From: Pseudobacter ginsenosidimutans
GTDB taxonomy: Bacteria > Bacteroidota > Bacteroidia > Chitinophagales > Chitinophagaceae
Direction of reading: 5' to 3'
NCBI RefSeq assembly: GCF_007970185.1
Contig: NZ_CP042431.1
Location: 5,270,001 to 5,334,000 of the forward strand
Length of the DNA stretch: 64,000 nucleotides
Under the pieces are notes generated by a model. The model searched no databases and was not told the origin of the DNA. It saw only the letters and a list, made by a program, of their open reading frames with translations. Of this stretch, positions 17,038 to 37,400 are shown piece by piece. Position numbers and translations under genes: made by a program. The first letter of the stretch is position 1. The number at the start of each line of letters is the position of its first letter.

Positions 17038-17760
17038 ATGAATTGCATTATCATAGATGATGAGCCATTGGCAAGGGAAGCCATAGGGATGTTGATCAGC
17101 CAGACTTATGATCTGCATCTGATCGGTTCGTTCAACAGCCCCGAAGCCGCTGCCGGTTTTTTGGAAAACAATACAGTAGAATTGATCTTTCTGGACATAC
17201 AAATGCCAGGAATTAACGGGATTGAATTTGCCCGGACAATTCCGAAAGAAACATTTGTGATCTTTACAACCGCCTATTCAGAATTTGCTACGGACAGCTA
17301 CGAAGTAGATGCTATTGACTACCTGATAAAACCTGTAAAGTCAGAACGGTTTCAAAAGGCTGTAGAAAAAGCCCATACCTATTCGAGATTGTTTAAGGCG
17401 GATTATGCCAATAACAATATCGAACAGGTTGCAGACGATTATTTCTTTGTGAAAGCAGACCGGAGAATGTTCAAAGTCTATTTCAATAATATACTTTTTA
17501 TTCAGGGATTGAAAGATTATGTGGTGATACACAGCGAAAATCAGAAAGTGATTACGGCGATGAATATCAAAACCATCTGCGATCAATTGCCCAAAGACAT
17601 GTTTGTAAGAGTTAGCAAATCCTATATCATCAATGTTAAGCATATCAGTTCCGTAGATAATAACACGGTATACATAGGTACAAACGAAATTCCTATCGGA
17701 AGTATTTACCGGGATTTCTTTTTCACCGGATTTGTAACAAAAAAGATAGTGAACAGGTAA
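17038..17760 (+). CDS. LytTR-family response regulator
   Basis: A 240-residue regulator. The receiver domain has the acidic pair DD at 7-8, phospho-acceptor Asp at 53 in FLDIQMPG, FTTAYSEFA and the conserved Lys in DYLIKPVKSE. Residues about 140-240 form a LytTR DNA-binding domain (FVRVSKSYIINVKHIS, IPIGSIYRDFF). It follows the histidine kinase by three bases and is its partner. It probably binds the 21-bp-period repeats at 15941-15972 and so controls its own operon and perhaps the divergent TonB receptor/DUF4249 genes. Confidence 0.92.
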   Translation: MNCIIIDDEPLAREAIGMLISQTYDLHLIGSFNSPEAAAGFLENNTVELIFLDIQMPGINGIEFARTIPKETFVIFTTAYSEFATDSYEVDAIDYLIKPVKSERFQKAVEKAHTYSRLFKADYANNNIEQVADDYFFVKADRRMFKVYFNNILFIQGLKDYVVIHSENQKVITAMNIKTICDQLPKDMFVRVSKSYIINVKHISSVDNNTVYIGTNEIPIGSIYRDFFFTGFVTKKIVNR

Positions 17761-22918: not shown

Positions 22919-23752
22919 ATGGCCGGTACCATCACAAACAAACAAGGGGATCCAGGAGTTTCCGTTAGTATGCGAAAACTCCTTTTCGTACTTTCTAATC
23001 TATTCCTGTCTGTTGCAGGGCTGGCCATGTTGCAGGATTTTCTGGAATCAAAAAGGAATGGCTTCACTTTTTACTTCGATGAATCTCTCTTGTACAAAAC
23101 GGTTTGGACCTTATTTATCCCAATACTGGCCTTTCTTTATCGCAGATTACAAAAAGCCTCATTGAAAACTGCAGCACAAACTGCCATTTTCATTGTTACG
23201 CCCATCCTGATTCATCTTTTCTGCCTGCCACTAATAGCTGTGATGTTCTCGGAGCTGTTTTATGGTGGCAGGTATGACCTGTACAAGTTTTTCAGCTATA
23301 CGTTGATAAACCATCTCTCCGTCTTGTTCCTTGTTTATACGATCTTTGTGCTTGGTTTCAGCTATTGGCTGAAAACTCCCCTTAGAATAAACGAGGCACA
23401 AAACAATACCACTTTAGCCACCATCATCATCAATAACGGGAAAGATAATGTGGTGGTGAATATCGATGAGATCATACAAATCACTTCAGCTACTCCCTAT
23501 ATCTATATCCATCTTGAAAACAGAAAATACCTGCACCCGGAAACTTTGAGAGCTCTTTCTGAGCAACTGGACAGCAATGTATTTGTTCGTGTGCATAAAT
23601 CCACCCTGGTGAACATCACAAAGGTCAGCTCTTTCAGATCAAGGCTAAACGGCGATTATGATCTGGAAATGACAACAGGGGAGCTTGTGAGGTTAAGCAG
23701 AACATATGCGGCTGGTTTCAAAAAAACGATCCGGGCCAGGTCATCAGGTTAG
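22919..23752 (+). CDS. Membrane-anchored LytTR transcription regulator
   Basis: A 277-residue one-component regulator. An N-terminal membrane part has four hydrophobic helices (about residues 20-150 of this reading). The C-terminal LytTR DNA-binding domain has VDEIIQITSATPYIYIHL-like strands (as NIDEIIQITS), VFVRVHKSTLVNITKVSS and the closing ELVRLSRTYAAGF. No receiver domain is present, so the membrane part probably senses the signal. An internal ATG at 22970 would begin directly at the first helix (MRKLLFVLSN) and is an equally good start. The 21-bp-period repeat at 23741-23772, overlapping its stop codon, suggests that it controls the dioxygenase gene downstream. Confidence 0.85.
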   Translation: MAGTITNKQGDPGVSVSMRKLLFVLSNLFLSVAGLAMLQDFLESKRNGFTFYFDESLLYKTVWTLFIPILAFLYRRLQKASLKTAAQTAIFIVTPILIHLFCLPLIAVMFSELFYGGRYDLYKFFSYTLINHLSVLFLVYTIFVLGFSYWLKTPLRINEAQNNTTLATIIINNGKDNVVVNIDEIIQITSATPYIYIHLENRKYLHPETLRALSEQLDSNVFVRVHKSTLVNITKVSSFRSRLNGDYDLEMTTGELVRLSRTYAAGFKKTIRARSSG

Positions 23753-24533: not shown

Positions 24534-25295
24534 CTATTTCCCATATTGAGCGAGAGCGCCGATAATAAGATCCTTTCTGCGCCGGGACACGATAATGCCG
24601 GTACCGTTATTCAGCCACAATATCCCTTCTTTATCCAGCCTTTCAATTTCACTGATATTAACCAGGTGGCTTTTATGTACACGTACAAACCCGTGATCGC
24701 TGAGGATATCTTCAAATTCTTTGAGTGTCCGCGAGATCAGCAATGGCTTCTTTTCTTTAAAATAGAAATGGGTGTAATTATTGATGCCTTCACATCGTAC
24801 TATCTCAGCAGGGCTGCAAAAATAGTAGCCATCCTGTGTGCTAAGCGCCAGTTTAAAAGCAGCGGATGATTTTTCTTTCAAATTATTCATCAGGTTGTCC
24901 ACAAGCTTCTGCCGGCCTGCGGCGTAATCATTGTTGCGTGCAATATGCCGGTTGATGGCATTTTGCAGTTCCTCGGCATCGATAGGTTTTAGCAGGTAAT
25001 CCAATGCGCTGAAACGAATTGCTTTAATGGCATACTTGTCATAGGCCGTAGTGAAGATCACATCGATACCCGTACTGTCTATCCGGCTCAGCAGATCAAA
25101 ACCGCTCATAGCGGGCATTTCAACATCCAGCAATAACAGTGAAGGCCGGTATCGTTCGATGAGGTCTACTGCTTCCTCGGGTGAATTGCTGGTAAGTACT
25201 TCCTTCTCGAATGAAGCGAGATGGTGTATCAGTACCTGCAAAATATTGGCTGCTGCCGGTTCATCATCCACTATCAGGATCTTTATCATCTGCAT
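24534..25295 (-). CDS. LytTR-family response regulator of the lipoprotein-array locus
   Basis: A 253-residue regulator; the internal ATG at 25289 (MIKILIVDDEP) may be the true start. The receiver domain has DDEP, phospho-acceptor Asp57 (LLLLDVEMPAMSG), FTTAYDKYA and the Lys of DYLLKPIDAEE. A LytTR domain follows (FVRVHKSHLVNISEIERLD, GIIVSRRRKDLI). It lies six bases downstream of the TPR histidine kinase and forms a two-component system with it. The likely binding sites are the 15-bp repeats at 27461-27538 and 32640-32674, in front of the kinase and of the lipoprotein array. Confidence 0.92.
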   Translation of the reverse strand: MQMIKILIVDDEPAAANILQVLIHHLASFEKEVLTSNSPEEAVDLIERYRPSLLLLDVEMPAMSGFDLLSRIDSTGIDVIFTTAYDKYAIKAIRFSALDYLLKPIDAEELQNAINRHIARNNDYAAGRQKLVDNLMNNLKEKSSAAFKLALSTQDGYYFCSPAEIVRCEGINNYTHFYFKEKKPLLISRTLKEFEDILSDHGFVRVHKSHLVNISEIERLDKEGILWLNNGTGIIVSRRRKDLIIGALAQYGK

Positions 25296-25301
25296 GCATT
25301 T

Positions 25302-27398
25302 TTATAAAGGAACTATTTCTATGATCACGGTGGTGCCTGTGGCAATGTTGTTGTCATCATACCGGTCTTCTATTCTTACGAATGCATCTTTTACCAGTCC
25401 TTCGCGGAGCATGGCCATTCTTTGTTCTGCAAGAATAGTGCCCTTCGATTCAAAATGCTCCGCGCCGATTTTGGCTGCTTTTATCTGTCCGGCGGCTATG
25501 CGCCCAATACCATTGTCGCTAATGGTACAGCGTATACTGTCGCCTGCTTCCTCAAAATGCACCAGCAGGCGCTTTTCTCCTTTCTTATTGGAAAGCCCGT
25601 GCCAGATGGCATTTTCGATATAGGGCTGAACCAGCAGTGTAGGGAACAGGATGGCATCCACATCCAGTTTCTCATCCACGGTGATGCTATAGTCAAAAGT
25701 ATTTTTTAAGCGAAGGGCTTCCAGCGCCACGTATAGCCGGCATATTTCGATCTCCTTCTGCAAGGTGATGAAATTCTTATCGGCCATATCCAGTACCATG
25801 CGCAGCAGTCGCGAAAACTTACTGAGGTATTGCGATGACAGCAGATAGTCTTTGGTTACGATCAGGTCCTGAATGGCATTAAGGCAGTTGAAAATAAAAT
25901 GGGGTTTCATTTGTGTCCGCAGGGCCTTTAATTCCAATTCATTTTTTACGCGCTCCAGTTCGCGTCGCTGCAGTTTGCGCCGGTAATAATAAACAAGGCC
26001 AAACAGCGTCATTAGTAAAAGGGTCCCTGAAATATAGAATAAACGCAGGCGTCTGGCTTCAGTTAATTGCAGCTCCTGGATGCGATTGTTTTTTTGCAGC
26101 AGAATAATTTGCTGGTTCTTTTTACCTGTTTGGTATTTGGCATCCGTTTCCGCCATGGTGCGCATGGCTTTCACGGTATTCAATGAATCCTGATGATCTT
26201 TGACCAGTGTATAATAATGCAGCGCTTCCGGGTAGCGCCCGCTTTCTTTGTACACCCGGTACAGGGACCCGTATAGTTTTATTTTCAGCTCCAGTGCAGT
26301 AGCAGGGGGCAATCCCTTTGCAACTGCCAGCAGTATCCCGTTTGCAGCCTGCCATTGCCTGCCGTCAATAAAAAAATCAGCCAGTGCCAGCTGGCTTTCT
26401 GTTACCAGGTTTGTCAGCTTGCTTTCATGTGCCAGGCGGAGGCTTTGCTGCAGGTATTGTTCGCCCTGCTTTCTGTTGCCGTTTGCTGCCAGTAATATGC
26501 CATAGCTTCTCGCTGCGAAGGAGCGGTGACGCCTGAAGACCCAGCCCGTATCTGTTCTTTCAAGCGCCAGCCGGAGATATTTGTAAGCAGAATCCAGCCT
26601 GCCCAGTTTTGCATAACAGTTACCCTTACCTGTATAGATTAATGGATTATGAGGTTTTCTTCTTTCAGGAACCATCGCTTCCAATTCATTATAATAAGCC
26701 AGGCTTTTGACAAAATCATTATGATCATATTGATAACTGGCCATACTGTATAACAATACCATGAACTGGAACCGGATTTTCTTTGATTCTTTGTCATCAC
26801 CTTCCGGATTGAACCTGTTTTTGATGACGCTGTAAATATCCATTGACCTGGACAGGTATTGAAATTCCATTTCGGGATTTCCTTTTTCGTGATAACATAA
26901 GCGGAGCAACTGATACAAATCGAGCAGCGCAATGCTGTCTTTCAGTTCATTGGCCAGCAGAAAGGCCGGTGTGCTTAAATTGATAGCAGAGTCATATTGT
27001 TTTGAAGAGTACAAACTTTCAACCAGGTTATTCAATATATATGACTGAAGCTTTTTGTTGCCGGAAAGCTGTGCATGTTTGTCGGCAAGTACTTTATAAT
27101 ACTGCTGGCTGTCTTTTTGCGGAGAAGATTTGTATCGAAAATACAGATTTGCCATCCAGTAGAACCTGGATAGCATCGAATCATTCTTTTCAGCAGCAGC
27201 ATCGCCGATGCCCTCCCTTACCAGCACGATGCCCTGTTCAAATTTACCGGTAGTGATCAGTTCGTTTGTCCTGATATATAAACTGTCCAGTTGTTTTATA
27301 GCAATACCGCCTTTTTTCTTGTCTTTACCGGATGGATGGCATCCAATAAAAAGAAGCAGGCATAATATCCATGGTATTATTCTGAAGCTGATTTTCAT
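25302..27398 (-). CDS. TPR-containing LytS-like histidine kinase
   Basis: A 698-residue kinase. The ATG at 27398 is chosen because it directly precedes a lipoprotein-like signal (LLLFIGC); the frame is open further upstream, but that part covers the promoter repeats. Residues about 40-410 are helical hairpins of the TPR type in the periplasm (YTGKGNCYAKLGRLDSAYKY, GILLAANGNRKQGEQYL). One membrane helix follows (LFYISGTLLLMTLFGLVYYY), then a coiled coil and the His_kinase domain with RTQMKPHFIFNCLNAIQDL (His near residue 497), an ENAIWHG N-box and a DNGIG G1 box. It probably senses an envelope signal and phosphorylates the adjacent LytTR regulator. Confidence 0.9.
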   Translation of the reverse strand: MKISFRIIPWILCLLLFIGCHPSGKDKKKGGIAIKQLDSLYIRTNELITTGKFEQGIVLVREGIGDAAAEKNDSMLSRFYWMANLYFRYKSSPQKDSQQYYKVLADKHAQLSGNKKLQSYILNNLVESLYSSKQYDSAINLSTPAFLLANELKDSIALLDLYQLLRLCYHEKGNPEMEFQYLSRSMDIYSVIKNRFNPEGDDKESKKIRFQFMVLLYSMASYQYDHNDFVKSLAYYNELEAMVPERRKPHNPLIYTGKGNCYAKLGRLDSAYKYLRLALERTDTGWVFRRHRSFAARSYGILLAANGNRKQGEQYLQQSLRLAHESKLTNLVTESQLALADFFIDGRQWQAANGILLAVAKGLPPATALELKIKLYGSLYRVYKESGRYPEALHYYTLVKDHQDSLNTVKAMRTMAETDAKYQTGKKNQQIILLQKNNRIQELQLTEARRLRLFYISGTLLLMTLFGLVYYYRRKLQRRELERVKNELELKALRTQMKPHFIFNCLNAIQDLIVTKDYLLSSQYLSKFSRLLRMVLDMADKNFITLQKEIEICRLYVALEALRLKNTFDYSITVDEKLDVDAILFPTLLVQPYIENAIWHGLSNKKGEKRLLVHFEEAGDSIRCTISDNGIGRIAAGQIKAAKIGAEHFESKGTILAEQRMAMLREGLVKDAFVRIEDRYDDNNIATGTTVIIEIVPL

Positions 27399-27430
27399 AT
27401 AACCATTATCGTCATCATACAGGCATATTA

Positions 27431-27496
27431 CAAAAGTACACAACTGCCTGTCAGAAAAGTTACCGTTTTCTCATTCCAGGTTACCGTTTCCTCATT
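27431..27496 (-). promoter_or_regulatory. Kinase-operon promoter with LytTR repeats
   Basis: The minus-strand -7 box TACTTTTG (27438-27431) is perfect and lies about 33 bases before the kinase ATG. No TTTG stands at -33. Instead the direct repeats TACCGTTTTCTCATT (27461-27475) and TACCGTTTCCTCATT (27482-27496; 14 of 15 bases alike, period 21 bp) begin 22 bases further upstream. ACCGTT agrees with the core of the published LytTR half-site. This looks like an activated, self-regulated promoter. Confidence 0.65.
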
Positions 27497-27573
27497 GTGT
27501 GGCCGCTCCCCATCACCCGGCGCGGCCATTGCCTCATTGGCGCTGCTGCAACTGGTTGAGGCAGCTAGTTTTA
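27461..27573 (+). promoter_or_regulatory. Lipoprotein-array promoter with LytTR repeats
   Basis: The two repeats described for the kinase promoter are followed, exactly 42 bp (2 x 21) beyond the second, by a degenerate third copy GGCCATTGCCTCATT (27524-27538; 11 of 15 match). The near-perfect -7 box TAGTTTTA (27566-27573) comes 27 bases after that copy, the same distance as in two other LytTR promoters in this window. Transcription would start about 14 bases before the first lipoprotein gene. Confidence 0.55.
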
Positions 27574-27593
27574 TTGTCGAAAACCATAAACAT

Positions 27594-28529
27594 ATGAAGG
27601 CGCACCAACCCTCTTTTCGATTGCTTAATGGATGCCTGCCGGTTATTATCCTGTTGCTGGCATCCTGCTCCAAACAAGATGGCTCCGGAGCACCCGATCC
27701 TGATTACGATGAACAACGAATCGCCACCATAACCATCAAAGACGAGGTACTGACGGCCACGTTTGCATACGACGACCAAAAACGCCTGAGCCGTATTGAT
27801 TATAGTGATATGGGCAGCCCATCCCTGCGTTTTTCCTACAACGGGCAAACTATCACGGCCCGGTATTACAAGGGCGCTGCCCCCGATCCGCAGCGGGAGA
27901 AATACGTGTTCACCCTGCTCAACAATCATGTGGTAAACACCCGCATGACCCGACCCGACAACTCTTACTACGATACGTATTTCGAATATGATGCACAGAA
28001 CAGAATGACGGAGATCGGTTTTCGTGCCGTATCGTCCAACGGAAGCATTGGCGCAACACTCGATTGCTATTATACTTACCCTGCCCAGGGCAATACGCAG
28101 GAACTGAAAATGTATGGACAATATCTGCTTAAGGAAACCGACACAATCACCCAAAGCAAAACCTGGCATACCGATAAACAATTTGTAAGTCTCAGCAATC
28201 TGGGCTTTGATTATTTTGGTAAAGCTCCTGCTGGTATTGCCTATGATATTGCAGGCATTCTGCCTGCAATAGAACCTTTCCCTTTTATCAGGAACACCAG
28301 GTTTATTGCTTCGTTCGATCAGGTGCCTTACCTGCTGCCTTCACCCACTGCGCTAAAAGTTTTGAAAGGACAAAAAAAATACCTGGATTACTCATCTGGC
28401 CCCTTCAATGTTCAGTGGGAATACAGCGGATGGGACTGGACTGATCCCGATAACAGCACAAGCCCTTACAAGTTCGATGAACTGGGCAGGCTTACCACAT
28501 ACTTCAATTACAATCTTACCTGGAAATAA
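27594..28529 (+). CDS. YD-repeat-like lipoprotein, type A copy 1
   Basis: A 311-residue lipoprotein (ATG at 27594; lipobox LLLASC). It has two YD-repeat-like elements, FAYDDQKRLSRIDY and FEYDAQNRMTEI, then a mid block ending LGFDYFGKAPAG and a C-terminus FDELGRLTTYFNYNLTWK. The same order occurs in copies at 29283, 30944 and 32826. YD repeats form the beta-cage of RHS proteins, but here there are only a few and no toxin domain, so it is a small surface or periplasmic protein. It is the first gene of the array and is probably driven by the LytTR system transcribed in the opposite direction. Function unknown. Confidence 0.75.
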   Translation: MKAHQPSFRLLNGCLPVIILLLASCSKQDGSGAPDPDYDEQRIATITIKDEVLTATFAYDDQKRLSRIDYSDMGSPSLRFSYNGQTITARYYKGAAPDPQREKYVFTLLNNHVVNTRMTRPDNSYYDTYFEYDAQNRMTEIGFRAVSSNGSIGATLDCYYTYPAQGNTQELKMYGQYLLKETDTITQSKTWHTDKQFVSLSNLGFDYFGKAPAGIAYDIAGILPAIEPFPFIRNTRFIASFDQVPYLLPSPTALKVLKGQKKYLDYSSGPFNVQWEYSGWDWTDPDNSTSPYKFDELGRLTTYFNYNLTWK

Positions 28530-28551
28530 TGGCAACCACAATTTTAATATT

Positions 28552-29271
28552 ATGAAAAAGAAAAAGCTGCTGAAGATACTATTACTGTGTTTGTACATCA
28601 TCTCCTGCAAAAAAAATGAAGGAGGCCAGCCGAACATGCCTTTACGCGTAAAAGCTGAAACTGATGCCGGCGGAAGCATGCTGTATACTTACAATGCAGC
28701 CCACAATATTGTAAAAGCGGAATTTGACAATGGCTTTAAAAAACTGGAATATCTGTATGAGCCCGGGAAAATAATGCACACCATTGTTGAAGCCGATCAT
28801 ACATATATCATCCATTATTCGCTCAATGAAAAAGGATACGTTAGTAACCAGCAATTTGAAGGTGAAACTGAAAAGAGGTTTTACGAATATAACGGGAACG
28901 ATTTCCTGATACGCACATTTAATGATCAAACACCCCGGTGGGAATCAAACTACCACTACAATGCTAGCACCGGACTGCTGGACAGTATTCGCAGTACAGT
29001 GGGGGATACCTGGAGCGGAACCAGTGTGTTCCTGTATTATACCGATAAGGCCAATAGTCTTGGCGATGAAAATTTCGGCCGGTATTTTTTCGGTAAATCA
29101 TCTCAGCATCCCGTTAAATCCGTTGCCTCACGGCGGCCCGAGGGCAATCTGGTAAAAGTAAGCGTAACCAATTTTACCTATACCTACGATAGCAGGGGGA
29201 GGATCAGCAGCAGAGGCTTTACCACATCCGGCGGACAAAGCGGCAACACAACGTATACTTATTACGAGTAA
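28552..29271 (+). CDS. YD-repeat-like lipoprotein, type B copy 1
   Basis: A 239-residue lipoprotein; the ATG at 28552 precedes the signal peptide MKKKKLLKILLLCLYIISC. Repeats include LYTYNAAHNIVKAEF, YEYNGNDFLIRTF and YTYDSRGRISSRGF. The type B signature is YHYNASTGLLDSIR, later ENFGRYFFGKSSQHPVKS, and an end in TTYTYYE. The same signature appears in copy 2 (30133). It shares the 'FFGK' block with type A, so both types probably arose from one ancestor. The ORF is open far upstream into the type A gene, but that part has no signal. Function unknown. Confidence 0.72.
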   Translation: MKKKKLLKILLLCLYIISCKKNEGGQPNMPLRVKAETDAGGSMLYTYNAAHNIVKAEFDNGFKKLEYLYEPGKIMHTIVEADHTYIIHYSLNEKGYVSNQQFEGETEKRFYEYNGNDFLIRTFNDQTPRWESNYHYNASTGLLDSIRSTVGDTWSGTSVFLYYTDKANSLGDENFGRYFFGKSSQHPVKSVASRRPEGNLVKVSVTNFTYTYDSRGRISSRGFTTSGGQSGNTTYTYYE

Positions 29272-29282
29272 AAAGAAACCGT

Positions 29283-30122
29283 ATGAACACTACAATTACA
29301 AAGAAGACTTTTATACCGGTTGCTGCATGCATGTTGCTGGTGGCGGCTTCCTGCAAAAAAGAGAGCAACGACAGATCGAAAAAAGAAAACCGGATTGCAG
29401 CCATAAAGACTTCCACCTTCAATCATATTTATCAGTACGATGCACAAAACCGGCTGGCAGGAATCGATTATAGCGTATCGTCACGCATGAAGGCAAGCTA
29501 TAACGCCTCCGGCATAGTGCTGCAGTGGTACGATGGCGCAGGTGATCCTACTGATCACAGAATTGAGATCAACCTGGTGGATGGCAGGGCCATCTCCGTA
29601 AAAGAGAACAATGCCACTTACAGGAACGATCATTTTTATACCTATGATAACGAAGGTAAAATGATACAGGCCCAGGTTACCAGGACTGCATTGGCCAATA
29701 ACCAGGTGGAGAACAGGGGAGAAGCTACCATGAGCTGGGATGGGAATTTGCTGCAGCGCGTATTGCTGCAGGTAAGCAACCGCTTTGGTGAAAAAACGGA
29801 CTCTATCATTAATGTTTTCACTTACTACAACGATAAGAAATTCATAACCTGGGACGATACAGGCTTTTCATATTTCGGGAAAATGCCCATTGGCGGCTTT
29901 CCCAACGGCTTCGGCTGGAGGCTGCCCATTAATTTCTTATCCGAAGATATCATGCCTTCTGCTGCGGCCATGAAAGGGGCTTCCCGGAAAAGTTATTATC
30001 GGAATGGCGGTGCATGGAGCCTTTCACAAGGCAGTAGCAATTATCCCGAAGACGACTACCTTCACGATGAACAAGGAAGGCTGAACAAATGGAGGACCGG
30101 GATAGAAATTACATGGAAATAA
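29283..30122 (+). CDS. YD-repeat-like lipoprotein, type A copy 2
   Basis: A 279-residue lipoprotein (lipobox LVAASC, then KKESND). The order is as in copy 1: YQYDAQNRLAGIDYS, YTYDNEGKMIQAQ, then FITWDDTGFSYFGKMPIG and the end RTGIEITWK. It is closest to copy 3, with which it shares VLQWY, NLVDGR/NLLDGR and YDNEG. It lies 11 bases after type B copy 1 and 10 bases before type B copy 2, so the array is one transcript. Function unknown; a surface place is likely. Confidence 0.75.
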   Translation: MNTTITKKTFIPVAACMLLVAASCKKESNDRSKKENRIAAIKTSTFNHIYQYDAQNRLAGIDYSVSSRMKASYNASGIVLQWYDGAGDPTDHRIEINLVDGRAISVKENNATYRNDHFYTYDNEGKMIQAQVTRTALANNQVENRGEATMSWDGNLLQRVLLQVSNRFGEKTDSIINVFTYYNDKKFITWDDTGFSYFGKMPIGGFPNGFGWRLPINFLSEDIMPSAAAMKGASRKSYYRNGGAWSLSQGSSNYPEDDYLHDEQGRLNKWRTGIEITWK

Positions 30123-30132
30123 AATCTTGACC

Positions 30133-30888
30133 ATGAAAGTGAAGACACAACTACTACTATCATCGATAGTAATGAACTGCCTGCTATTGGCAGCCTGTAA
30201 AAAAAACGGCAGTGGCTCCAATAACTGGCCGGCGCCGATGATAAAAACTGAAACGACCAATAATAACATCACGTCTTACCGGTACGATAAACAGGGACGT
30301 ATTGTGGAACTGGTAAACGGCGACTGGGTAAGGGTCGACTATTCTTATACCAGGGATTCCCTTTTTTACAAAACAACGGAGATTGCCACCAACGCAGTTC
30401 AAAAAGTAGCTGCGAAGCTGGATCCCAATGGAATGCTGGCAGCCCAGGAAGGAACAGTACGTAAATACGACGACGATGGCCGGCCTGTAGAAGAATTGTC
30501 GCCTCCCAATAGTAACGGATGGCAAAAACGATACAAATATTACTACAACAGTGCCACCGGCTTATTGGACAGCACGCGGCAAACTGAAAGCAAATTGCTG
30601 CAGACCCGTTGGCTTCAGACTACAGTGTATACCTACTATCCCGATCAAAATAACACCATCGGCAATGAGAACAGGGGAATGGGTTTTATGGGTAAGAACA
30701 GCCCTCGTCCTGTAAAAATTTCAGAGATCTGGCGGCCAAAATCGGTTGACCCTTTCCGGGAGATCACCAATATCATGAAATTACAGTATGGCTATGATGA
30801 GCAGGGGCGCATTGTAGTAGAGGATCATACCGAAGACAGGGCCGATAATACTGTTGTGCAATGGCGAACGGTATACACCTATTATTGA
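30133..30888 (+). CDS. YD-repeat-like lipoprotein, type B copy 2
   Basis: A 251-residue lipoprotein (ATG at 30133; lipobox LLLAAC, then KKNGSG). Elements are YRYDKQGRIVELVNGDW, RKYDDDGRPVEEL, the type B block YYYNSATGLLDSTR, GMGFMGKNSPRPVKISEIWRP, YGYDEQGRIVVED and the end WRTVYTYY. Compared with copy 1 the block order is the same but most other residues differ, so the pair has been diverging for long. A TTG at 30127 could also start translation. The next gene begins after 55 bases. Function unknown. Confidence 0.74.
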   Translation: MKVKTQLLLSSIVMNCLLLAACKKNGSGSNNWPAPMIKTETTNNNITSYRYDKQGRIVELVNGDWVRVDYSYTRDSLFYKTTEIATNAVQKVAAKLDPNGMLAAQEGTVRKYDDDGRPVEELSPPNSNGWQKRYKYYYNSATGLLDSTRQTESKLLQTRWLQTTVYTYYPDQNNTIGNENRGMGFMGKNSPRPVKISEIWRPKSVDPFREITNIMKLQYGYDEQGRIVVEDHTEDRADNTVVQWRTVYTYY

Positions 30889-30943
30889 TGCGCTACCATT
30901 GAATTGATAATTACGACAACAGCTACACTAAAAATCAGTAAAA

Positions 30944-31783
30944 ATGAAACAGATCGTCCTGTATAGTATAATATTGTTCACCATCCTTGCCTCCTGCAAA
31001 AAAAATAATGACCGCAACGGAAAAGAGAAAAAAATATCCGCTGCGGTGGTAAACAATATCAATAATGTATTCAGTTATGATGCGCAGGGGAGACTGCAAC
31101 GTATCGACTATGGAGTAAGTCACTATTTACTGGTAGAGTACAAGGCAGCCGGCACCGTGCTGCAGTGGTATTTAGCGGATGGTACTCCTATTGCCACCAG
31201 GCGTTATGAGTTCAACTTGCTGGATGGCCGGATCGTTTCGGGTAAAGAAAGCAAGGCGAACAGCCGCATTGTTACCCATTCCTATGGATATGATAATGAA
31301 GGGCGGCTTACCGAACACTCAGCCCGGGATGTGTACGAGCCCACTAACGAGGAAGCGCACAGGGTAATATTCACTTACAGCTATACCGGCAACAATGCCG
31401 GTAAGATCACCTATCTGCATTTCGACCAGGGACTGCGGCGCGATTCGGCAGTAATAACACAGACCTATTACACAAATAAGAAATTATTTACCTGGCAGGC
31501 TGTCGGCTTTGGCTTTTTCGGGCAAACCGCTTCCGGCCTGCCACACCAGGGGCTGGGTATTTCATCGCCCATTACTATATTGCCCTTCCAGGCATACTAT
31601 CCCTCCGTCAATGCGCTGAAAGAAACTACAAGGGACCAATATGAATGGAACATTGCTCAGAACAAATGGGTGTATAAAAATACAAGCGGCTACACGCTGC
31701 CTGAAACAGATTATGAATATAACGGAGAAGGTTACCTGATTTCTTTTAGTGGTGCGGAAAAAATTGAATGGAACCAAAAATGA
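30944..31783 (+). CDS. YD-repeat-like lipoprotein, type A copy 3
   Basis: A 279-residue lipoprotein (lipobox ILASC, then KKNNDRNGKEKK). Signature elements are FSYDAQGRLQRIDYG, YGYDNEGRLTEHSAR, FTWQAVGFGFFGQTASG and an end in GAEKIEWNQK. Same length as copy 2. Its last codons overlap the start of the flavoprotein gene in an ATGA (31780-31783), so the two are translationally coupled. It is the last gene before the flavoprotein breaks the A/B alternation. Function unknown. Confidence 0.75.
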   Translation: MKQIVLYSIILFTILASCKKNNDRNGKEKKISAAVVNNINNVFSYDAQGRLQRIDYGVSHYLLVEYKAAGTVLQWYLADGTPIATRRYEFNLLDGRIVSGKESKANSRIVTHSYGYDNEGRLTEHSARDVYEPTNEEAHRVIFTYSYTGNNAGKITYLHFDQGLRRDSAVITQTYYTNKKLFTWQAVGFGFFGQTASGLPHQGLGISSPITILPFQAYYPSVNALKETTRDQYEWNIAQNKWVYKNTSGYTLPETDYEYNGEGYLISFSGAEKIEWNQK

Positions 31784-32601
31784 AACAAGTGGCAGTTGTT
31801 GGCGCGGGTATCAGCGGACTGGTAACGGCAAATGCCATGCAGCAGCAGGGATACAAAGTAACCGTATTTGAAAAAGCCTCCACCATCGGTGAATCATGGG
31901 AGCGTGGAACTTACTATACTGGCGAAGTGGCACAGTCAGTAAGAAAAGACTATACCTTTTACGGTTCGGATATTCCTCCGCTCTCCGGCGAATGGCCCGA
32001 TGGTGAAGAAATGCAGGAGTATCTTGAAGCTTATGCCTTAAAAACCGGGGTGCACCAACTCATTTCTTTTCAAACAAATGTTCAGAATGTCTATAGTAAC
32101 GCCTCCGGATGGAAAATATCAGCCAGGAAGGATAAGGAAAACCAATACAGGGAACTGCAGTTTGATGCAGTGGTGATATGTACAGGGATGGAGTGGGGCA
32201 GTTTTAGCTATTGGCCTTTACATCGCAATATCGCTGTTGCCAATTCCGGAAGCATCGGCTTTGTTGGCATGAACGGAAGCCTTTTCTTTACACTTACTGC
32301 AATCATCGCGGCGCATTGGATGGCAGCTTACCTGAGCGGAGGCATACAATTATCCACCCATCAGTCAACCAGGTACCAACCCAAACAATACAATAAGAGG
32401 AGACAGGTTTCGCAACTCATACATTACCTGAACCAGCTCTTAAAGGATATGGGCGGTAAGCCACCGGCCAGCAGTAATCTCTTGTTTCGTCTGTTGGGCA
32501 CTCCCTTCAAGCCCGGAATTTATGCTGCTCTGGCAAAGAAATTGACAAACAGCCATGCTTCTCTTTTTCACGGACCTTATTCACGCTCCTGCTTTTCCTG
32601 A
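31780..32601 (+). CDS. Flavin monooxygenase-like protein lacking its NADPH domain
   Basis: A 273-residue remnant of an FMO/CzcO-type flavoprotein. The ATG at 31780 overlaps the preceding stop; an in-frame ATG at 31768 is less likely. The FAD-binding Rossmann motif VAVVGAGISGLVTANAM and EKASTIGESWERG are intact, followed by DAVVICTGMEWGS. From there the text jumps to a region that normally lies near the end of the enzyme (SIGFVGMNGSL...AAHWMAAYLSGG). The second GxGxSG (NADPH) domain is absent, and the protein is 150 or more residues shorter than the usual 430-460. An in-frame internal deletion is the simplest reading. A normal monooxygenase reaction is unlikely; FAD binding may remain. Confidence 0.65.
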   Translation: MKQVAVVGAGISGLVTANAMQQQGYKVTVFEKASTIGESWERGTYYTGEVAQSVRKDYTFYGSDIPPLSGEWPDGEEMQEYLEAYALKTGVHQLISFQTNVQNVYSNASGWKISARKDKENQYRELQFDAVVICTGMEWGSFSYWPLHRNIAVANSGSIGFVGMNGSLFFTLTAIIAAHWMAAYLSGGIQLSTHQSTRYQPKQYNKRRQVSQLIHYLNQLLKDMGGKPPASSNLLFRLLGTPFKPGIYAALAKKLTNSHASLFHGPYSRSCFS

Positions 32602-32639
32602 ACAGCACTATCGAATGGATACATTGAATAGACCAGCGC

Positions 32640-32710
32640 TACCGTTTTCTCATTCAGAAAACCACTCCCTCATTTGTTTGACAGGCTGATTGTAACCCGC
32701 TTTATTTTTA
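32640..32710 (+). promoter_or_regulatory. Second array promoter with LytTR repeats
   Basis: TACCGTTTTCTCATT (32640-32654) is identical, base for base, to the repeat at 27461-27475. A weaker second copy AACCACTCCCTCATT (32660-32674; 10 of 15) follows at a 20-bp period. The -7 box TATTTTTA (32703-32710; 7 of 8) begins 28 bases after it. This ties the fourth type A gene to the same regulator as the start of the array. Confidence 0.65.
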
Positions 32711-32825
32711 GACAAAATACCAGCCAATGATGAAACAAAGCTCCGTTATCAATTCATTTGTTTCTGCCGGTATCAGCCAATATCATATTGCCGTAATGAC
32801 CATAGCAAATAACCATACAGGAAAA

Positions 32826-33695
32826 ATGATGAAACCAATAGCTCTCATACCAGTTTTCGCTGCACTCTTTGCAGGCGCTTTTCTGTCTTGTAAAAAAGAT
32901 AAGGACAATAACCCTCAACCTGGTTCATCTTACCGGATAAAAACAACATTGGACGGAGGGGACAAAAAGACATTTATATACGATAATGAAAACAGGCTTA
33001 CGCGTATTGAATTTTCCGGGGGAACTTACCAGCTCGTGTATTCAGCTGTAGAGATCAAGGCGCAGACCTATTTTGCCAATGGCAATCCCGACCCCAATTG
33101 GAAATACCTGTTCTCCGTGAACAATAACCGGATCAATGGCGGATTCCGCTATCTTCCCAACGGAGCTGTAGGTCGTGATTACCGTTTTGAATATGATATC
33201 GATGGACGACTGCAATTAACCTTAATGCGTCTGTTCGACTTTACTGGTGATGTATCGGAGTCCCACCGTTATTATTTTTTGTACGATGCAGAGAATAATC
33301 TGCAACAGGTTGCCTACACCAGAGAGAACCGGAATGGCGCTGTCATGGAGAAAGCGGACTCTGTAGCTGCAATGATTAGTTATTATACCCGCAGGGATTT
33401 CATTCGATGGAAACAAACGGGCTTTGATTTCTTCGGGAAATCTACAGGCGGCATCCGGTTTACGGGTCTTGACATCATCCCATTTTCATTTTTATTCCAG
33501 GAAAATATTATTCTGTCTGAAAAAGCCATTCAGACAATCGGTACTAAAAAATTCAACTGGAACCAGGGAACTCATTCATGGAGTCCTGTATCGTCAAACA
33601 ATCAAAACTATCCTGAATCAGATTATCAATATAACGATCAGGGACTTCCCGTAAAGTTCAAGAATATTTCCATAGAGTGGGAGTCCTACAAATAG
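32826..33695 (+). CDS. YD-repeat-like lipoprotein, type A copy 4
   Basis: A 289-residue lipoprotein (ATG at 32826; a second ATG follows directly), with lipobox AFLSC and KKDKDNN. An in-frame ATG at 32727 fits the predicted transcription start better but would give an unusual 60-residue leader. Elements are FIYDNENRLTRIEF, FEYDIDGRLQLTL, FIRWKQTGFDFFGKSTGG and the end NISIEWESYK. It is the most distant of the four A copies and has its own LytTR promoter. Function unknown. Confidence 0.72.
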   Translation: MMKPIALIPVFAALFAGAFLSCKKDKDNNPQPGSSYRIKTTLDGGDKKTFIYDNENRLTRIEFSGGTYQLVYSAVEIKAQTYFANGNPDPNWKYLFSVNNNRINGGFRYLPNGAVGRDYRFEYDIDGRLQLTLMRLFDFTGDVSESHRYYFLYDAENNLQQVAYTRENRNGAVMEKADSVAAMISYYTRRDFIRWKQTGFDFFGKSTGGIRFTGLDIIPFSFLFQENIILSEKAIQTIGTKKFNWNQGTHSWSPVSSNNQNYPESDYQYNDQGLPVKFKNISIEWESYK

Positions 33696-33710
33696 ATAAA
33701 TAAGATGTGT

Positions 33711-34544
33711 ATGAGAAAGATCATTTATTTCCTGTTATCATTTGTGATATTGGGATTGTTCAGCGAGTGCAAAAAGGGGAAACAATCCAAGCTGGAAAAT
33801 CCCTTTGGGCTCCTGCAGTTAGGATCTGATACGAGTCTGCCTGATGGGCGCTATGTTATTCGTACGGCTAACGGATGTACAATACCTGCGGCTACCTTAC
33901 GCTGCGATTATACATCAGACCGTGTGATCGGCATCAATGGCAGCCTGCCGGCAATCGATCATATCAGGCTTGAAGATATCGATTCAGCAGATGTCTGGTA
34001 TGTCAAAAAGGTGAGGTACGTATCGCCCGACCCGGATTATGCATTGGCGTTTGGATACCGGATCTATCAACGTATGTCCGATGGCAGTTATCGATTTCTT
34101 TCGCTTTCTGCTACCGCCAGCACTTTACAGTGGACAGATGATGAAATCGGGGATACCTACACCGATGATCGTGCCAAAAGTGTAAAAGCAGCCGCACACT
34201 ATTTAGAAAAATACCCGGCAGATCCGCCTGTTCCTACTTCTTTCGCCACCAGCAATGATACCCTCCCGGAAATAAAAACGAGATTCCTGTTCCAGCTATA
34301 CGCATCGGAAAAAGAAAAGGGGGCTTTCTTTATTAAAACCGGCGGCATAAGTGCAACCACTGGAAGTACACCAGTTGCCCGATGGAACTTTTGCCTTGCT
34401 TGTATTGAAGATGATAAATGTGATCCAGGCAATCTGTATCCGCATTTCAGGGATGAAGATCCCCGCTGTCAAACATGGCGCGAAGGTGGTAACGATACAC
34501 GCAGATGCTATATCAGGGAATATTATTTTCAAAAAGTATATTAA
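33711..34544 (+). CDS. Cysteine-rich putative lipoprotein at the array end
   Basis: A 277-residue protein with a lipoprotein signal (GLFSEC, then KKGK); ATG at 33711 is preferred over 33705. It shows no YD repeats. The sequence begins with a beta-trefoil-like or lectin-like strand run (LPDGRYVIRTANGCTIPAAT, DVWYVKKVRYVSP) and ends in a short cysteine-rich part (LACIEDDKCDPGN, CQTW, RRCYI), suggesting disulphides and export. It follows type A copy 4 by 15 bases and probably shares its transcript. I do not recognise the family. Confidence 0.65.
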   Translation: MRKIIYFLLSFVILGLFSECKKGKQSKLENPFGLLQLGSDTSLPDGRYVIRTANGCTIPAATLRCDYTSDRVIGINGSLPAIDHIRLEDIDSADVWYVKKVRYVSPDPDYALAFGYRIYQRMSDGSYRFLSLSATASTLQWTDDEIGDTYTDDRAKSVKAAAHYLEKYPADPPVPTSFATSNDTLPEIKTRFLFQLYASEKEKGAFFIKTGGISATTGSTPVARWNFCLACIEDDKCDPGNLYPHFRDEDPRCQTWREGGNDTRRCYIREYYFQKVY

Positions 34545-34573: not shown

Positions 34574-35890
34574 TCATCCTTCCAGCATTTCCAGTATTCC
34601 TTCATTCCTGATGATCATCATACCCTGACGATCTTCTGTAACGCCTTCCTGTAACCGGTAAGTATACCTGGGTTTCGAACCTTCCATGATGGTGGGCATG
34701 AATACGGAATGGATATTCCCTCTTTGCTTCAATGCCTCGCCCACTTCAATGATATGAGTGGATACAATGAACAGGCAGTCATTGTAATCCGCAAATCCTT
34801 CTGTTACTGCCAATGTTCCATCATAAGCATCTTTTACATTGGTGCCTTTGAACAGTTCATCGAACATCAGTAACAGGCGTTTTCCACTGGCGGCTGCATT
34901 GGCGGCCTGCTTTACGCGTACCACTTCTGCATAGAAATGGCTGTAGCCAAGTCCGATATTATCCGCCACATTGATAGACGAGTATAAGCCTTCCCTTACG
35001 GAAAAATCCATTCTTTCTGCGGCCACCGGGAATCCCATCTGTGCCAGGTAGAGGCCGATGCCGATCGATTTCATTAATGTACTCTTACCGGCCATATTTG
35101 CTCCGGTGAGAAAAATAACATTGTGCCTTTCGCTCATGAGAATATCATTGCCGATAGCTTTATCGATACAGGGATGCGCCAGGTTTGCAGCCCGCAGTAT
35201 ATTTTGTTCAGGAGCCAGTGCCTTTGCATAAGTGAATCCCTTCTTACGCGCAACACTGCTTACTGCGATATAGAGATCCAACTCATAGATGAACTGCAGC
35301 AGTTCTTCCATTTCAGCATGGAAGCGGCTTTTCAGCAGGTGGTCATATTGAGCAAGGGTAGTTACAGAAATATCGGTATAGATATCTGTAGTACGTAACT
35401 TCTCCAGTTGTTTATCAGAAAGCAGTTGGAGGAGTTGGTTGATACGATTGTGCAGCGGGCTTTGTAGTTTTTGTAATACTTCCAGTATCCCATGACAACG
35501 GTTCAACGTAACGATGGTGGCCTGCAATCCCTGCACAGATTTCTTGTACCGTTCATCGCGGGTAAGCTTGCTAAGTAATTTCTGTGTGAACATACTGCAG
35601 AGAATGGCAAATGCACGCTTTCCCGTTCCTGCATCGAGGTATTCCCGCATGATATTGAGTTGCTGCACATCGAAGGAAAAACCCAGGTTCGATTGCTGAA
35701 AGAACTGGAAGATACTACTGCGTTGATTGATACTGTCAGCATCGAGCAAAGGGTTGCGGAACATCTGATCCAGCATCTGTTCTCCGCCTCTCGTTTTTAC
35801 CTCATTGAACAAGTGATATACCGAGCCCTGTCTGAATTTCCCCAACAGGTTCAGTTCTTCCACCGTTTGCTTATCTGTATAAAATTGCAT
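34574..35890 (-). CDS. MutS-like ATPase 1 (core and ATPase domains only)
   Basis: A 438-residue protein with the clamp/lever helices (residues about 1-230) and the ATPase domain of MutS proteins but no mismatch-recognition domain. Walker A is LTGANMAGKSTLMK, Walker B LLLMFDELFKGT, and the signature region is STHIIEVGEALKQ. Short MutS-like proteins of this kind are common in Bacteroidota; their role is not in standard mismatch repair as far as the missing recognition domain shows. The paralogue at 36096 has the same length and order. A 205-base gap with repeat elements separates them. Confidence 0.82.
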   Translation of the reverse strand: MQFYTDKQTVEELNLLGKFRQGSVYHLFNEVKTRGGEQMLDQMFRNPLLDADSINQRSSIFQFFQQSNLGFSFDVQQLNIMREYLDAGTGKRAFAILCSMFTQKLLSKLTRDERYKKSVQGLQATIVTLNRCHGILEVLQKLQSPLHNRINQLLQLLSDKQLEKLRTTDIYTDISVTTLAQYDHLLKSRFHAEMEELLQFIYELDLYIAVSSVARKKGFTYAKALAPEQNILRAANLAHPCIDKAIGNDILMSERHNVIFLTGANMAGKSTLMKSIGIGLYLAQMGFPVAAERMDFSVREGLYSSINVADNIGLGYSHFYAEVVRVKQAANAAASGKRLLLMFDELFKGTNVKDAYDGTLAVTEGFADYNDCLFIVSTHIIEVGEALKQRGNIHSVFMPTIMEGSKPRYTYRLQEGVTEDRQGMMIIRNEGILEMLEG

Positions 35891-35915
35891 TGTTGTTAAA
35901 TTTATTCAGCGTGTG

Positions 35916-36080
35916 CCCAGTCGATCGCCTCCCGGCGAGGGACTTATATTGGGGGCTGACTAAAAAGGTTAACGAAGGCTCTGAGAATCGCGTAATCGAG
36001 CTTTTGTCTCCATCACCTACCCGGGTGAGGGGGCACCCTTTTTAGTCAGCCCCACTATGTCGCCGGAGGCGAGCGACTGG
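35916..36080. repeat. REP-like inverted pair flanking a small element
   Basis: Left copy 35916-35939 (reverse orientation) and right copy 36060-36080 match each other in about 20 of 21 bases with one gap. They belong to the same family as the pair at 6793-6862. Each has a GGCGA-type palindromic core followed by CGACTGG. Together they frame the 102-bp element inside. The span is non-coding and separates two MutS-like genes. Confidence 0.6.
35952..36053. mobile_element. MITE-like 102-bp element with 17-bp perfect terminal inverted repeats
   Basis: GGGGCTGACTAAAAAGG (35952-35968) is exactly repeated in inverted form at 36037-36053. The interior has no reading frame and contains a small CACC...GGTG hairpin. 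Perfect TIRs, short size and intergenic position are typical of a miniature inverted-repeat transposable element. No clear target-site duplication is visible (the flanking bases differ), so a stable RNA or bidirectional terminator hairpin remains possible. Confidence 0.5.
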
Positions 36081-36095
36081 CGCCACGCCGATGTT

Positions 36096-37400
36096 TTATT
36101 GTACAGCCCGTTTACGGCCATGCTTCAGCGTCTCAAGGATGCCTTCATTGCGGATAATGATCATACCGTGGCGATCAGCGGTAATTCCTCGTTCTAACGT
36201 GTAAGTATATTCGGGAACATTGCCATTCATGCGTGTAGGCAGGTACTGAAAACCAATTGATGGGACCTGCTGTAAACGCTCACCGGCTTCCACAATATGG
36301 GAAGAGATGATGAACATACTATTCTTCTTTGCAGCAAAGGCCACCGTGATCTCCACCGTGGCTTCATGCGCATCTTTCACATTGGTGCCGCGGAACATTT
36401 CATCGAAAATGATAAACAGTGATTTGTTGGCCTGCAACTCTGCCGCCACTTTCTTCACCCGCAATACTTCTGCATAGAAATGGCTGGCGCCAATCCCTAA
36501 ATTATCCGGTAAGTTGATGGTAGTGTAAATGCCATCCAGTACGGAGAACTCCATTTCTTCTGCCGCTACCGGAAAGCCGATATGCGCCACATATACTGCA
36601 GTACTCACGGATCGCAGGAAGGTGGATTTTCCCGCCATATTCGCTCCGGTGAGAAACACCACGTTATTTGCGGCATCCATGGTAAAATTATTACTCACGG
36701 GCTTCGCCAGCTCCGGGTGATACACACCTTTGAGCCGGAGAATGCTTGTGCCTTTTTCTAACGCTTTGGGAAATACGAATTTCCTTTCCTGTGCAACTCT
36801 GGCCACTGAGAGATAAACATCCAGCTGATAGATCTGCGCCAGCAGTTTTTCTATTTTATTTCGTTCCCGATGCCGGAACAGGAGATCGTAAGCCGTGATG
36901 GCTGCATAGCTCAATTTTGCTTTGCCCTGTTCCCGCATTACCGGTTCAAAAGCAGGGTCGAGGAGGAGGGAGGCAATCGCCTCCCTTTCCTTTGACCAGG
37001 ATTTCATGGCTATGACCTCCTTTGAATCGATGAAAGTTTTGATCTGTTGCACCAGTGAAATCAGCGCCGTTACGCCATTGCTGATCTCTTTTTCACTCAA
37101 CACCGCCTGTTGTGTGCCCTGCTTTTTCTGTTCATCGGCCGCCAGCAAATATTTCTCTGCCATATCGAACAAAGCTCCTTCAAAAGGAAAGCGCATATTC
37201 ATCATCGAAAAATTGCGGATGATATCGCTTCTACGGTTGATCTCCTGTTGGTCACACAATGGTTTGGTGAACATTTCTTTCAATACTGCTTCTGCGCCGC
37301 GGGTATGTGAGTGATTGTAGAGATCGAATAATCCCTGGCTGTCCCGCTTCCCGAAGATCCGCAGATCTTCTATCGTTTGTTCATCGGTTTGTAAGTACAT
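36096..37400 (-). CDS. MutS-like ATPase 2 (core and ATPase domains only)
   Basis: A 434-residue paralogue of the protein at 34574. Walker A is LTGANMAGKSTFLR, Walker B LFIIFDEMFRGTNVKDAHEA, then ISSHIVEAGERLQQ. The N-terminal helices correspond to the MutS core, and no DNA mismatch domain is present. It starts six bases after the ABC fusion gene, so it is probably co-transcribed with the transporter. In both copies an F replaces the usual L/V residue before the Walker B DE, and 'NVKDA' follows. The cell role is unknown; an ATP-driven action on branched DNA is possible by family analogy. Confidence 0.82.
   Translation of the reverse strand: MYLQTDEQTIEDLRIFGKRDSQGLFDLYNHSHTRGAEAVLKEMFTKPLCDQQEINRRSDIIRNFSMMNMRFPFEGALFDMAEKYLLAADEQKKQGTQQAVLSEKEISNGVTALISLVQQIKTFIDSKEVIAMKSWSKEREAIASLLLDPAFEPVMREQGKAKLSYAAITAYDLLFRHRERNKIEKLLAQIYQLDVYLSVARVAQERKFVFPKALEKGTSILRLKGVYHPELAKPVSNNFTMDAANNVVFLTGANMAGKSTFLRSVSTAVYVAHIGFPVAAEEMEFSVLDGIYTTINLPDNLGIGASHFYAEVLRVKKVAAELQANKSLFIIFDEMFRGTNVKDAHEATVEITVAFAAKKNSMFIISSHIVEAGERLQQVPSIGFQYLPTRMNGNVPEYTYTLERGITADRHGMIIIRNEGILETLKHGRKRAVQ

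Follow-up and report, generated by a model that had tools for sequence, protein, structure and literature searches.

A LytTR two-component system and predicted tandem operators at an array of YD-type lipoprotein genes in Pseudobacter ginsenosidimutans

Organisation of the locus

We describe a locus in Pseudobacter ginsenosidimutans at which a sensor histidine kinase (HK) and a LytTR response regulator (RR) lie divergent from an array of lipoprotein genes. It sits in a 64,000-nucleotide stretch, hereafter the window (G000:C1:5270001-5334000), of a 7.8-Mb genome in one contig. The original prediction, made from the sequence alone, had a TPR kinase and LytTR regulator transcribed away from such an array, and the open reading frames (ORFs) and Pfam domains agree. 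Its order for lipoproteins of two types, A1-B1-A2-B2-A3-(flavoprotein)-A4, stands as well; the last gene of its range (33705-34544) is a separate lipoprotein, C, not one of type A. The features are as follows, with G111 and G263 denoting genomes of another and a third genus.

24534-25295, minus strand: RR, LytTR response regulator, 253 aa; above the Pfam cut-off for Response_reg (80.7 bits) and for LytTR (59.6 bits)
25302-27407, minus strand: HK, sensor histidine kinase, TPRs followed by His_kinase; Pfam TPR_12, TPR_2 and His_kinase above cut-off
27461-27496, plus strand: predicted operator P1 in the HK/A1 divergent region, two LytTR-type half-sites with 21-bp spacing, pointing to A1
27525-27538, plus strand: third, weaker half-site of P1, 42 bp (2 x 21) past the second; position matched in G111
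27594-28529, plus strand: A1 lipoprotein, ORF in the type A alignment
28552-29271, plus strand: B1 lipoprotein, ORF of type B; model pLDDT 85
29283-30122, plus strand: A2 lipoprotein, ORF in the type A alignment
30133-30888, plus strand: B2 lipoprotein, ORF of type B, without an orthologue at the G111 locus
30944-31783, plus strand: A3 lipoprotein, ORF in the type A alignment
31780-32601, plus strand: FMO-like flavoprotein, probable remnant and passenger (Pfam, structure-based alignment)
32640-32674, plus strand: predicted operator P2, two half-sites with 20-bp spacing (pattern and matrix)
32829-33695, plus strand: A4 lipoprotein; relatives at 67% (G111) and 58% (G263); model pLDDT 81
33705-34544, plus strand: C lipoprotein, without a Pfam match; 83% in G111, 27% in G263

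RR and HK are separated by 6 bp, and the genes from A1 to A3 by gaps of 10-55 bp. The FMO-like gene overlaps the end of A3 and is followed by a promoter gap, after which A4 and C lie 9 bp apart, so that P2 splits the array into A1...FMO and A4-C. Base composition gives no signal of recent acquisition (45.1% GC in the array, 45.7% in the window). Array genes occur in one of the six genomes of the genus in our collection.

The kinase and its regulator

The kinase matches His_kinase (PF06580) at 73.9 bits against a cut-off of 25.2, as a LytS-type kinase should, and its N-terminus shows by eye a lipobox and one transmembrane segment. RR combines Response_reg and LytTR, the architecture of LytTR response regulators; its best NCBIfam model, BtsR (PRK11697), scores 109.8 bits, far below the 246 required for membership. 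With the LytTR systems BtsS/BtsR, YpdA/YpdB and AgrC/AgrA the locus shares a receiver-LytTR regulator, a His_kinase-type sensor, tandem direct repeats and a target operon near the system. Its output, however, is a lipoprotein array rather than a transporter, and its sensor carries TPRs whereas BtsS has seven transmembrane segments (PMC10653868).

A second point of comparison is the Reg_prop/Y_Y_Y kinases that work with LytTR regulators. The kinases of G263 and of a further locus, L088, are of that kind, each paired with a related regulator and an operator of the same type. A Pfam scan that covered the window, G263 and L088 kinases placed neither Reg_prop nor Y_Y_Y among the 14 families listed for the window kinase, which carries TPRs instead.

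Predicted operators at both promoters

The original prediction had noticed that the kinase/A1 region and the stretch ahead of A4 have repeats in common. These are beyond chance, and we identify them as predicted tandem LytTR-type operators: ACCGTTTTCTCATT-like half-sites 21 bp apart at P1 (27461-27496) and 20 bp apart at P2 (32640-32674). The paired pattern has two matches in the window and none in 100 shuffles. In a search of the whole 7.8-Mb genome with one exact pattern it occurs exactly twice, at P1 and P2, and the reversed pattern not at all; weaker look-alikes are present elsewhere in the window. The E. coli BtsR site is alike in general form.

The predicted sites are conserved in arrangement. 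The window and G111 agree in the relative positions of their P1 half-sites (22, 43 and 85), P2 half-sites are 20 bp apart in both, and the 21/20-bp spacing of these direct repeats is kept in three genomes. For a wider view, a weight matrix of eight half-sites from the window and G111 was run on 20 other selected loci (354 kb), of which L088-L106 were picked by similarity to RR and L124, in G263, by A4. It returned 11 tandem sites above 15 bits, against 0.6 per shuffled replicate. The best lies in L124, directly before A4. Seven are upstream of a kinase (L088, L089, L090, L091, L092, L094 and L103), another is upstream of the kinase operon of L099, a second site in L091 precedes a lipoprotein gene, and one inside a coding sequence in L104 is likely a chance match. 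A nine-half-site matrix, with one more G111 site, returned a similar set in which the site before the L091 lipoprotein gene was missing.

Apart from L124 and the G111 locus (L087), none of the matrix-tested neighbourhoods showed an A/B array. The operator therefore appears to belong to the regulator subfamily, with lipoproteins having joined its regulon in some lineages. The L091 lipoprotein (L091:8389-9143) has 212 aa and no Pfam match, with its tandem operator just upstream and a 57% RR relative about 6 kb away; we considered it as C-like on a suggestive MAFFT alignment, and rejected this when the C profile scored it no better than shuffles. Beside subfamily kinases in L088, L089, L090, L093 and L106, products starting with SVGIG-type, fibre-like stretches recur by eye, which suggests that the subfamily may control surface structures elsewhere.

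Related loci in two other genera

Per-genome scoring took six to nine best candidates according to the search, which makes the genome and place counts below lower bounds. Among 294 family genomes searched with RR (nine candidates each), the best relative, at 77%, is in G111 and the next reach at most 59%. The G111 locus reads RR, HK, divergent A1-B1-A2-A3, then B'-A4-C. Relative to the window, B2 and the FMO-like gene are absent and B' is extra, and the order HK, RR, A1, B1, A2, A3, A4, C is conserved. Identities between the two are 76.8% (RR), 59.5% (HK), 65.7% (A1), 74.5% (B1), 56.3% (A2), 71.8% (A3), 67.4% (A4) and 83.4% (C), C being the most conserved output gene. Because dN (0.10-0.35) is well below dS (1.3-3.4, saturated), the genes appear to be under purifying selection. 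Operators stand between HK and A1 and before B'-A4-C.

An A profile built from the A4 alignment found at least 46 places in 32 of 394 family genomes (six candidates each). Nine of these belong to the arrays of the window genome and G111; one more, full-length, is in G263, where operator, A4, C, HK and RR follow in a row on one strand. Here A4 is 58%, C 27% and the LytTR regulator 45% identical, and the kinase is of the Reg_prop/Y_Y_Y type. A scan of genome contigs with the C alignment, from which records very close to the window may have been excluded, returned one locus, that of G111, and the C profile placed C in three of 374 family genomes (six candidates each): the window genome, G111 and G263. 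In all three C follows A4 and adjoins a LytTR two-component pair. Because C and A4 recur in these genomes with a different kinase in G263, the constant core of the locus is A4-C with a two-component pair, and the sensor is exchangeable. Operator-A4-C with a LytTR two-component system was probably the founding unit, to which A1-A3 and the B genes were apparently added later in tandem.

That the kinase, regulator and array form one predicted regulatory unit, as originally proposed, is supported by the operators, which keep their spacing at both G111 promoters and lie directly before A4 in G263; the proposal that A and B are obligate pairs fared otherwise.

A, B and C lipoproteins

The motifs first described for the lipoproteins are there: the GF-Y/F-FGK/Q block and C-terminal Trp strand of type A, YxYNxxTGLLDS and the YTYY end of type B, and lipoboxes, visible by eye in all six proteins and weaker in A4. 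A1-A4 share 29 invariant alignment columns, and B1 and B2 are 36% identical. RHS/YD repeats are matched in all six, above the 22-bit cut-off in A1, B1, B2 and A4 and below it in A2 (17.3 bits) and A3 (20.2 bits); across 12 A/B members, 11 match RHS_repeat (PF05593) at E <= 0.1. In a tree of 71 rows, A forms one clade (nine rows, support at least 95/86) and B another (four rows, support 100/95) nested among other lipoproteins, and each of A1, A2, A3 and A4 pairs with its counterpart between genomes.

AlphaFold models built from 12 aligned sequences are nearly all beta, with pLDDT 81 for A4 and 85 for B1. In Foldseek, two Rhs proteins head the A4 list by E-value with poor overall fit, followed at rank 3 by 3tzg, a 'porin-like' Bacteroides protein (E 2.6e-06, TM-score by query 0.51-0.54, root-mean-square deviation (rmsd) 6-7 A); for B1 the first match is 4ghb, likewise 'porin-like' (E 1.1e-07, TM-score by query 0.60-0.61, rmsd 5-6 A). 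Both matches cover nearly the full length of the models, which thus have the porin-like fold, and from their titles we take 3tzg and 4ghb to be DUF4595 proteins. By sequence, the proteins fall short of DUF4595 (PF15283): B1 scores 23.0 bits against a cut-off of 34.2, and one of 12 A/B members matches at E <= 0.1, under the cut-off. A and B form two clades of lipoproteins of the YD type, predicted to fold like DUF4595. They resemble DUF4595 proteins in this fold and as short YD-repeat lipoproteins, but differ in forming regulated tandem arrays of two clades. With Rhs/YD-shell proteins (RhsA, teneurins) they share YD repeats and the leading Foldseek matches of A4, but the TM-score by query is at most 0.36 among the Rhs and teneurin matches listed, and A and B are single chains of 240-310 aa in which no toxin domain was found.

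C has no Pfam match even at E 10; a beta-trefoil, suggested by eye only, was set aside. Neither Pfam nor NCBIfam gives a function for these lipoprotein families, and the one hit from PADLOC, a weak one, was of B2 against an oligonucleotide-cyclase model (E 0.0025).

The flavoprotein had been listed as part of the array. It is present there, apparently as an incomplete FMO: against an FMO of known structure, the protein matches residues 1-154 of the reference and picks up again, weakly, at 281-351, about 126 residues further along, so that it seems to lack the middle of the fold. No ORF at the G111 locus matches it. With a weak second stretch and no relative at the orthologous locus, the flavoprotein is unlikely to be a working part and is probably a remnant and passenger. 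Beyond RR in G111 lies an unrelated-looking FAD-type ORF.

Pairing and copy number of the lipoprotein genes

From the alternation of types it had been proposed that A and B act in pairs and that copy number or variation is under selection. Obligate heteromeric pairs, with alternation reflecting a functional stoichiometry, would fit the A-B-A-B order of the window and the mixing of two types in a second genus, g105. The order A1-B1-A2-A3 then B'-A4-C in G111, which lacks B2 and places B' elsewhere, and the 20-kb G263 locus, where A4-C stands without any B, speak against pairing as an obligate rule, and of three g105 orders one alternates throughout; we regard such pairs as very unlikely. A B profile matched at least eight of 394 genomes (seven candidates each), G263 not among them. 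It is C, rather than B, that always accompanies A4.

Copy number does vary between species in g105, where two diverged types, X and Y, make up independent arrays before an unrelated kinase and LytTR regulator, with six, four, three and one copies in G343, G186, G282 and G238. X-profile matches occur in eight of the 14 genomes searched. The orders are Y-X-Y-X-X-X in G343, X-X-X-Y in G186 and X-Y-X in G282, type calls made partly by construction, as proteins of G343, G186, G282 and G031 went into the X and Y profiles; calls in L162, L163 and for the first X of L131 are independent. A tree separates X from Y for the members included. G238 has a single X with no pair directly adjoining; a different-looking kinase-LytTR pair begins 4.4 kb on, and a flanking gene looks alike by eye. 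The arrays of six, four, three and one copies at L134 (7604-16716), L131 (6919-14419), L162 (3416-9835) and L163 (8972-9724) apparently occupy one and the same place in the genomes of four species; in three of these a kinase and LytTR regulator follow directly. Hairpin-T stretches can be seen in several of the intergenic gaps.

For operators in g105, an unbiased tandem-repeat search gave no signal (4 hits, where shuffles averaged 1.3 and reached up to 11). A tandem ACC-N18-ACC precedes the first X gene in four genomes, in three of them at or below 1% of shuffles and in one not (44/300), and is found in none of three g105 kinase upstream regions.

Association of the wider family with LytTR genes

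The original prediction named as a point against itself that A and B genes might mostly occur away from a kinase/LytTR pair. For the wider family this is the case, while A4 and C adjoin a LytTR system in all three genomes. The 37 non-array places of the A-profile search, which did not list the X genes of G282, make up 35 loci. A LytTR gene lies within 5 kb in five of them (L124, L130, L131, L134 and L137), against 1.8 expected from LytTR densities (P=0.03); without the G263 locus, L124, the figure is 4/34 (P=0.10), and any general enrichment beside the family is weak. A raw count over 20 further loci from a phylum search gives three (L173, L174 and L189) with a LytTR gene within 5 kb.

These counts bear on another explanation, that the lipoproteins are chance neighbours, cargo with no relation to a kinase-regulator pair that has some other target. 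The 30 of 35 loci at which no LytTR gene was seen within 5 kb, the 5/35 against 1.8 expected (P=0.03) and the fading of that excess to 4/34 (P=0.10) without G263 are in its favour. It does not sit well with two operators in a whole genome, both at this array, with their conserved spacing in G111 or with operator-A4-C-HK-RR in G263, and we consider it highly improbable.

Two of the loci with LytTR genes resemble each other. At L173, in the same genome as the window, two more such DUF4595-like lipoproteins are divergent from another kinase-LytTR pair, and L137 in G111 is similarly arranged, its kinase and lipoprotein genes being separated by a region with a clear match to the operator of the window (0/200 shuffles as good); the upstream regions of L173 and L189 gave no clear match to that operator. 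A small, similar-looking protein lies nearby in both (L173:4690-10359, G000:C1 near 4911103; L137:4748-10685). Across the phylum, profile A14 matched at least 81 of 365 genomes (seven candidates each), some matches being large Rhs-like genes.

A predicted envelope regulon

Gene order, the predicted fold, and the conservation and near-uniqueness in the genome of the operators are shown. The explanation we favour as the most probable is that the locus forms a self-contained, kinase-controlled envelope regulon: a kinase-LytTR pair, operators P1 and P2, and two lipoprotein operons with a binding role at the envelope. The TPR kinase would sense a cue on the periplasmic side and phosphorylate the LytTR regulator, which would bind the tandem half-sites at P1 and P2, presumably turning the A1-B1-A2-B2-A3 and A4-C operons on rather than repressing them, and perhaps acting on its own genes too. 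The products, A and B with their curled YD/DUF4595-type beta fold together with C, would sit in the envelope as anchored lipoproteins and bind a molecule from outside there. Within this scheme, regulation by the LytTR system at P1 and P2 is well supported by the footprinting of predicted sites, and envelope binding is the favoured role for the lipoproteins.

Several observations weigh against this explanation. As at P1, the half-sites of all seven sites upstream of a kinase point away from that gene, and in L088, L089, L090, L094 and L103 a divergent gene lies across from the kinase and is a possible target; autoregulation is therefore no more than possible, and the reading direction lowered our confidence slightly. 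The test loci share a regulator subfamily, which the sites may mark generally. A4 and C are known from three genomes only, and 30 of the 35 wider-family loci show no LytTR gene within 5 kb (three, L138, L141 and L155, are on contigs that end within that distance, where one could be missed). In C the lipid Cys is preceded by E or Q, which is uncommon for a lipobox; the fold matches carry an rmsd of 5-7 A; and the proposed ligand binding is drawn from fold and location only.

An alternative role for the same proteins is an inducible immunity bank, in which diverged, mostly orphan immunity proteins against neighbours' toxins are switched on by a sensor under attack. BF9343_1936, listed as the immunity protein Bti1 for a type VI effector of B. 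fragilis (PMC7604300), is reported with a DUF4595-like domain (PMC11854122); the likeness is by description, not sequence. Tandem diverged paralogues, copy number that differs between sister species and patchy presence (one of six genomes of the genus) would also suit such a bank. Against it, no effector gene was recognised beside the array, and the order of A1-A4, B1 and C is kept at 56-83% identity across two genera, unlike that of quickly swapped immunity genes. In addition, among 102 proteins flanking 52 lipoprotein loci (three of 55 lacked an anchor, and spurious ORFs account for a few of the neighbours), no toxin or secretion family is among the 25 most frequent of 101 Pfam families; kinase and receiver families count four each, just behind ABC transporters at five each. 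An immunity bank is, in our view, unlikely.

More speculatively, and with a distinctly small chance of being right, Bacteroidota LytTR systems may have captured DUF4595-fold lipoproteins repeatedly and in independent events and grown mixed two-clade arrays that serve as an inducible envelope-recognition repertoire, a decoy or immunity bank. If so, the arrays would be modular, with copy number turning over between species, and aimed at contact-delivered or envelope-targeting agents.

The original prediction knew of no described system of this plan, and titles and abstract openings in the literature searched, a coverage with subscription journals mostly outside it, likewise show none. Relatives of these lipoproteins spread through the phylum, and no role is assigned to the families that they resemble. 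At this locus six such proteins are accompanied by a regulator, its operator and two promoters, which makes cue and function directly testable, and the variable g105 arrays allow one to ask what selects copy number.

Neighbouring genes

Finally, we note some features around these loci. One gene from RR, the window encodes a LytTR-domain protein with apparent membrane segments and no receiver seen (22919-23752; LytTR match G000:C1:5293450), and another LytTR gene lies near 17464. Two tandem MutS-like ATPase genes, named by eye, follow C (34574-37400), each about 28% identical to an L048 ORF. Small globin-like genes, also recognised by eye, recur near these LytTR systems and lipoproteins (L130:11330-11755, L131:14862-15848, L165:7888-8316, L050:8774-9193, L056:9088-9932 and L104:12868-13296).

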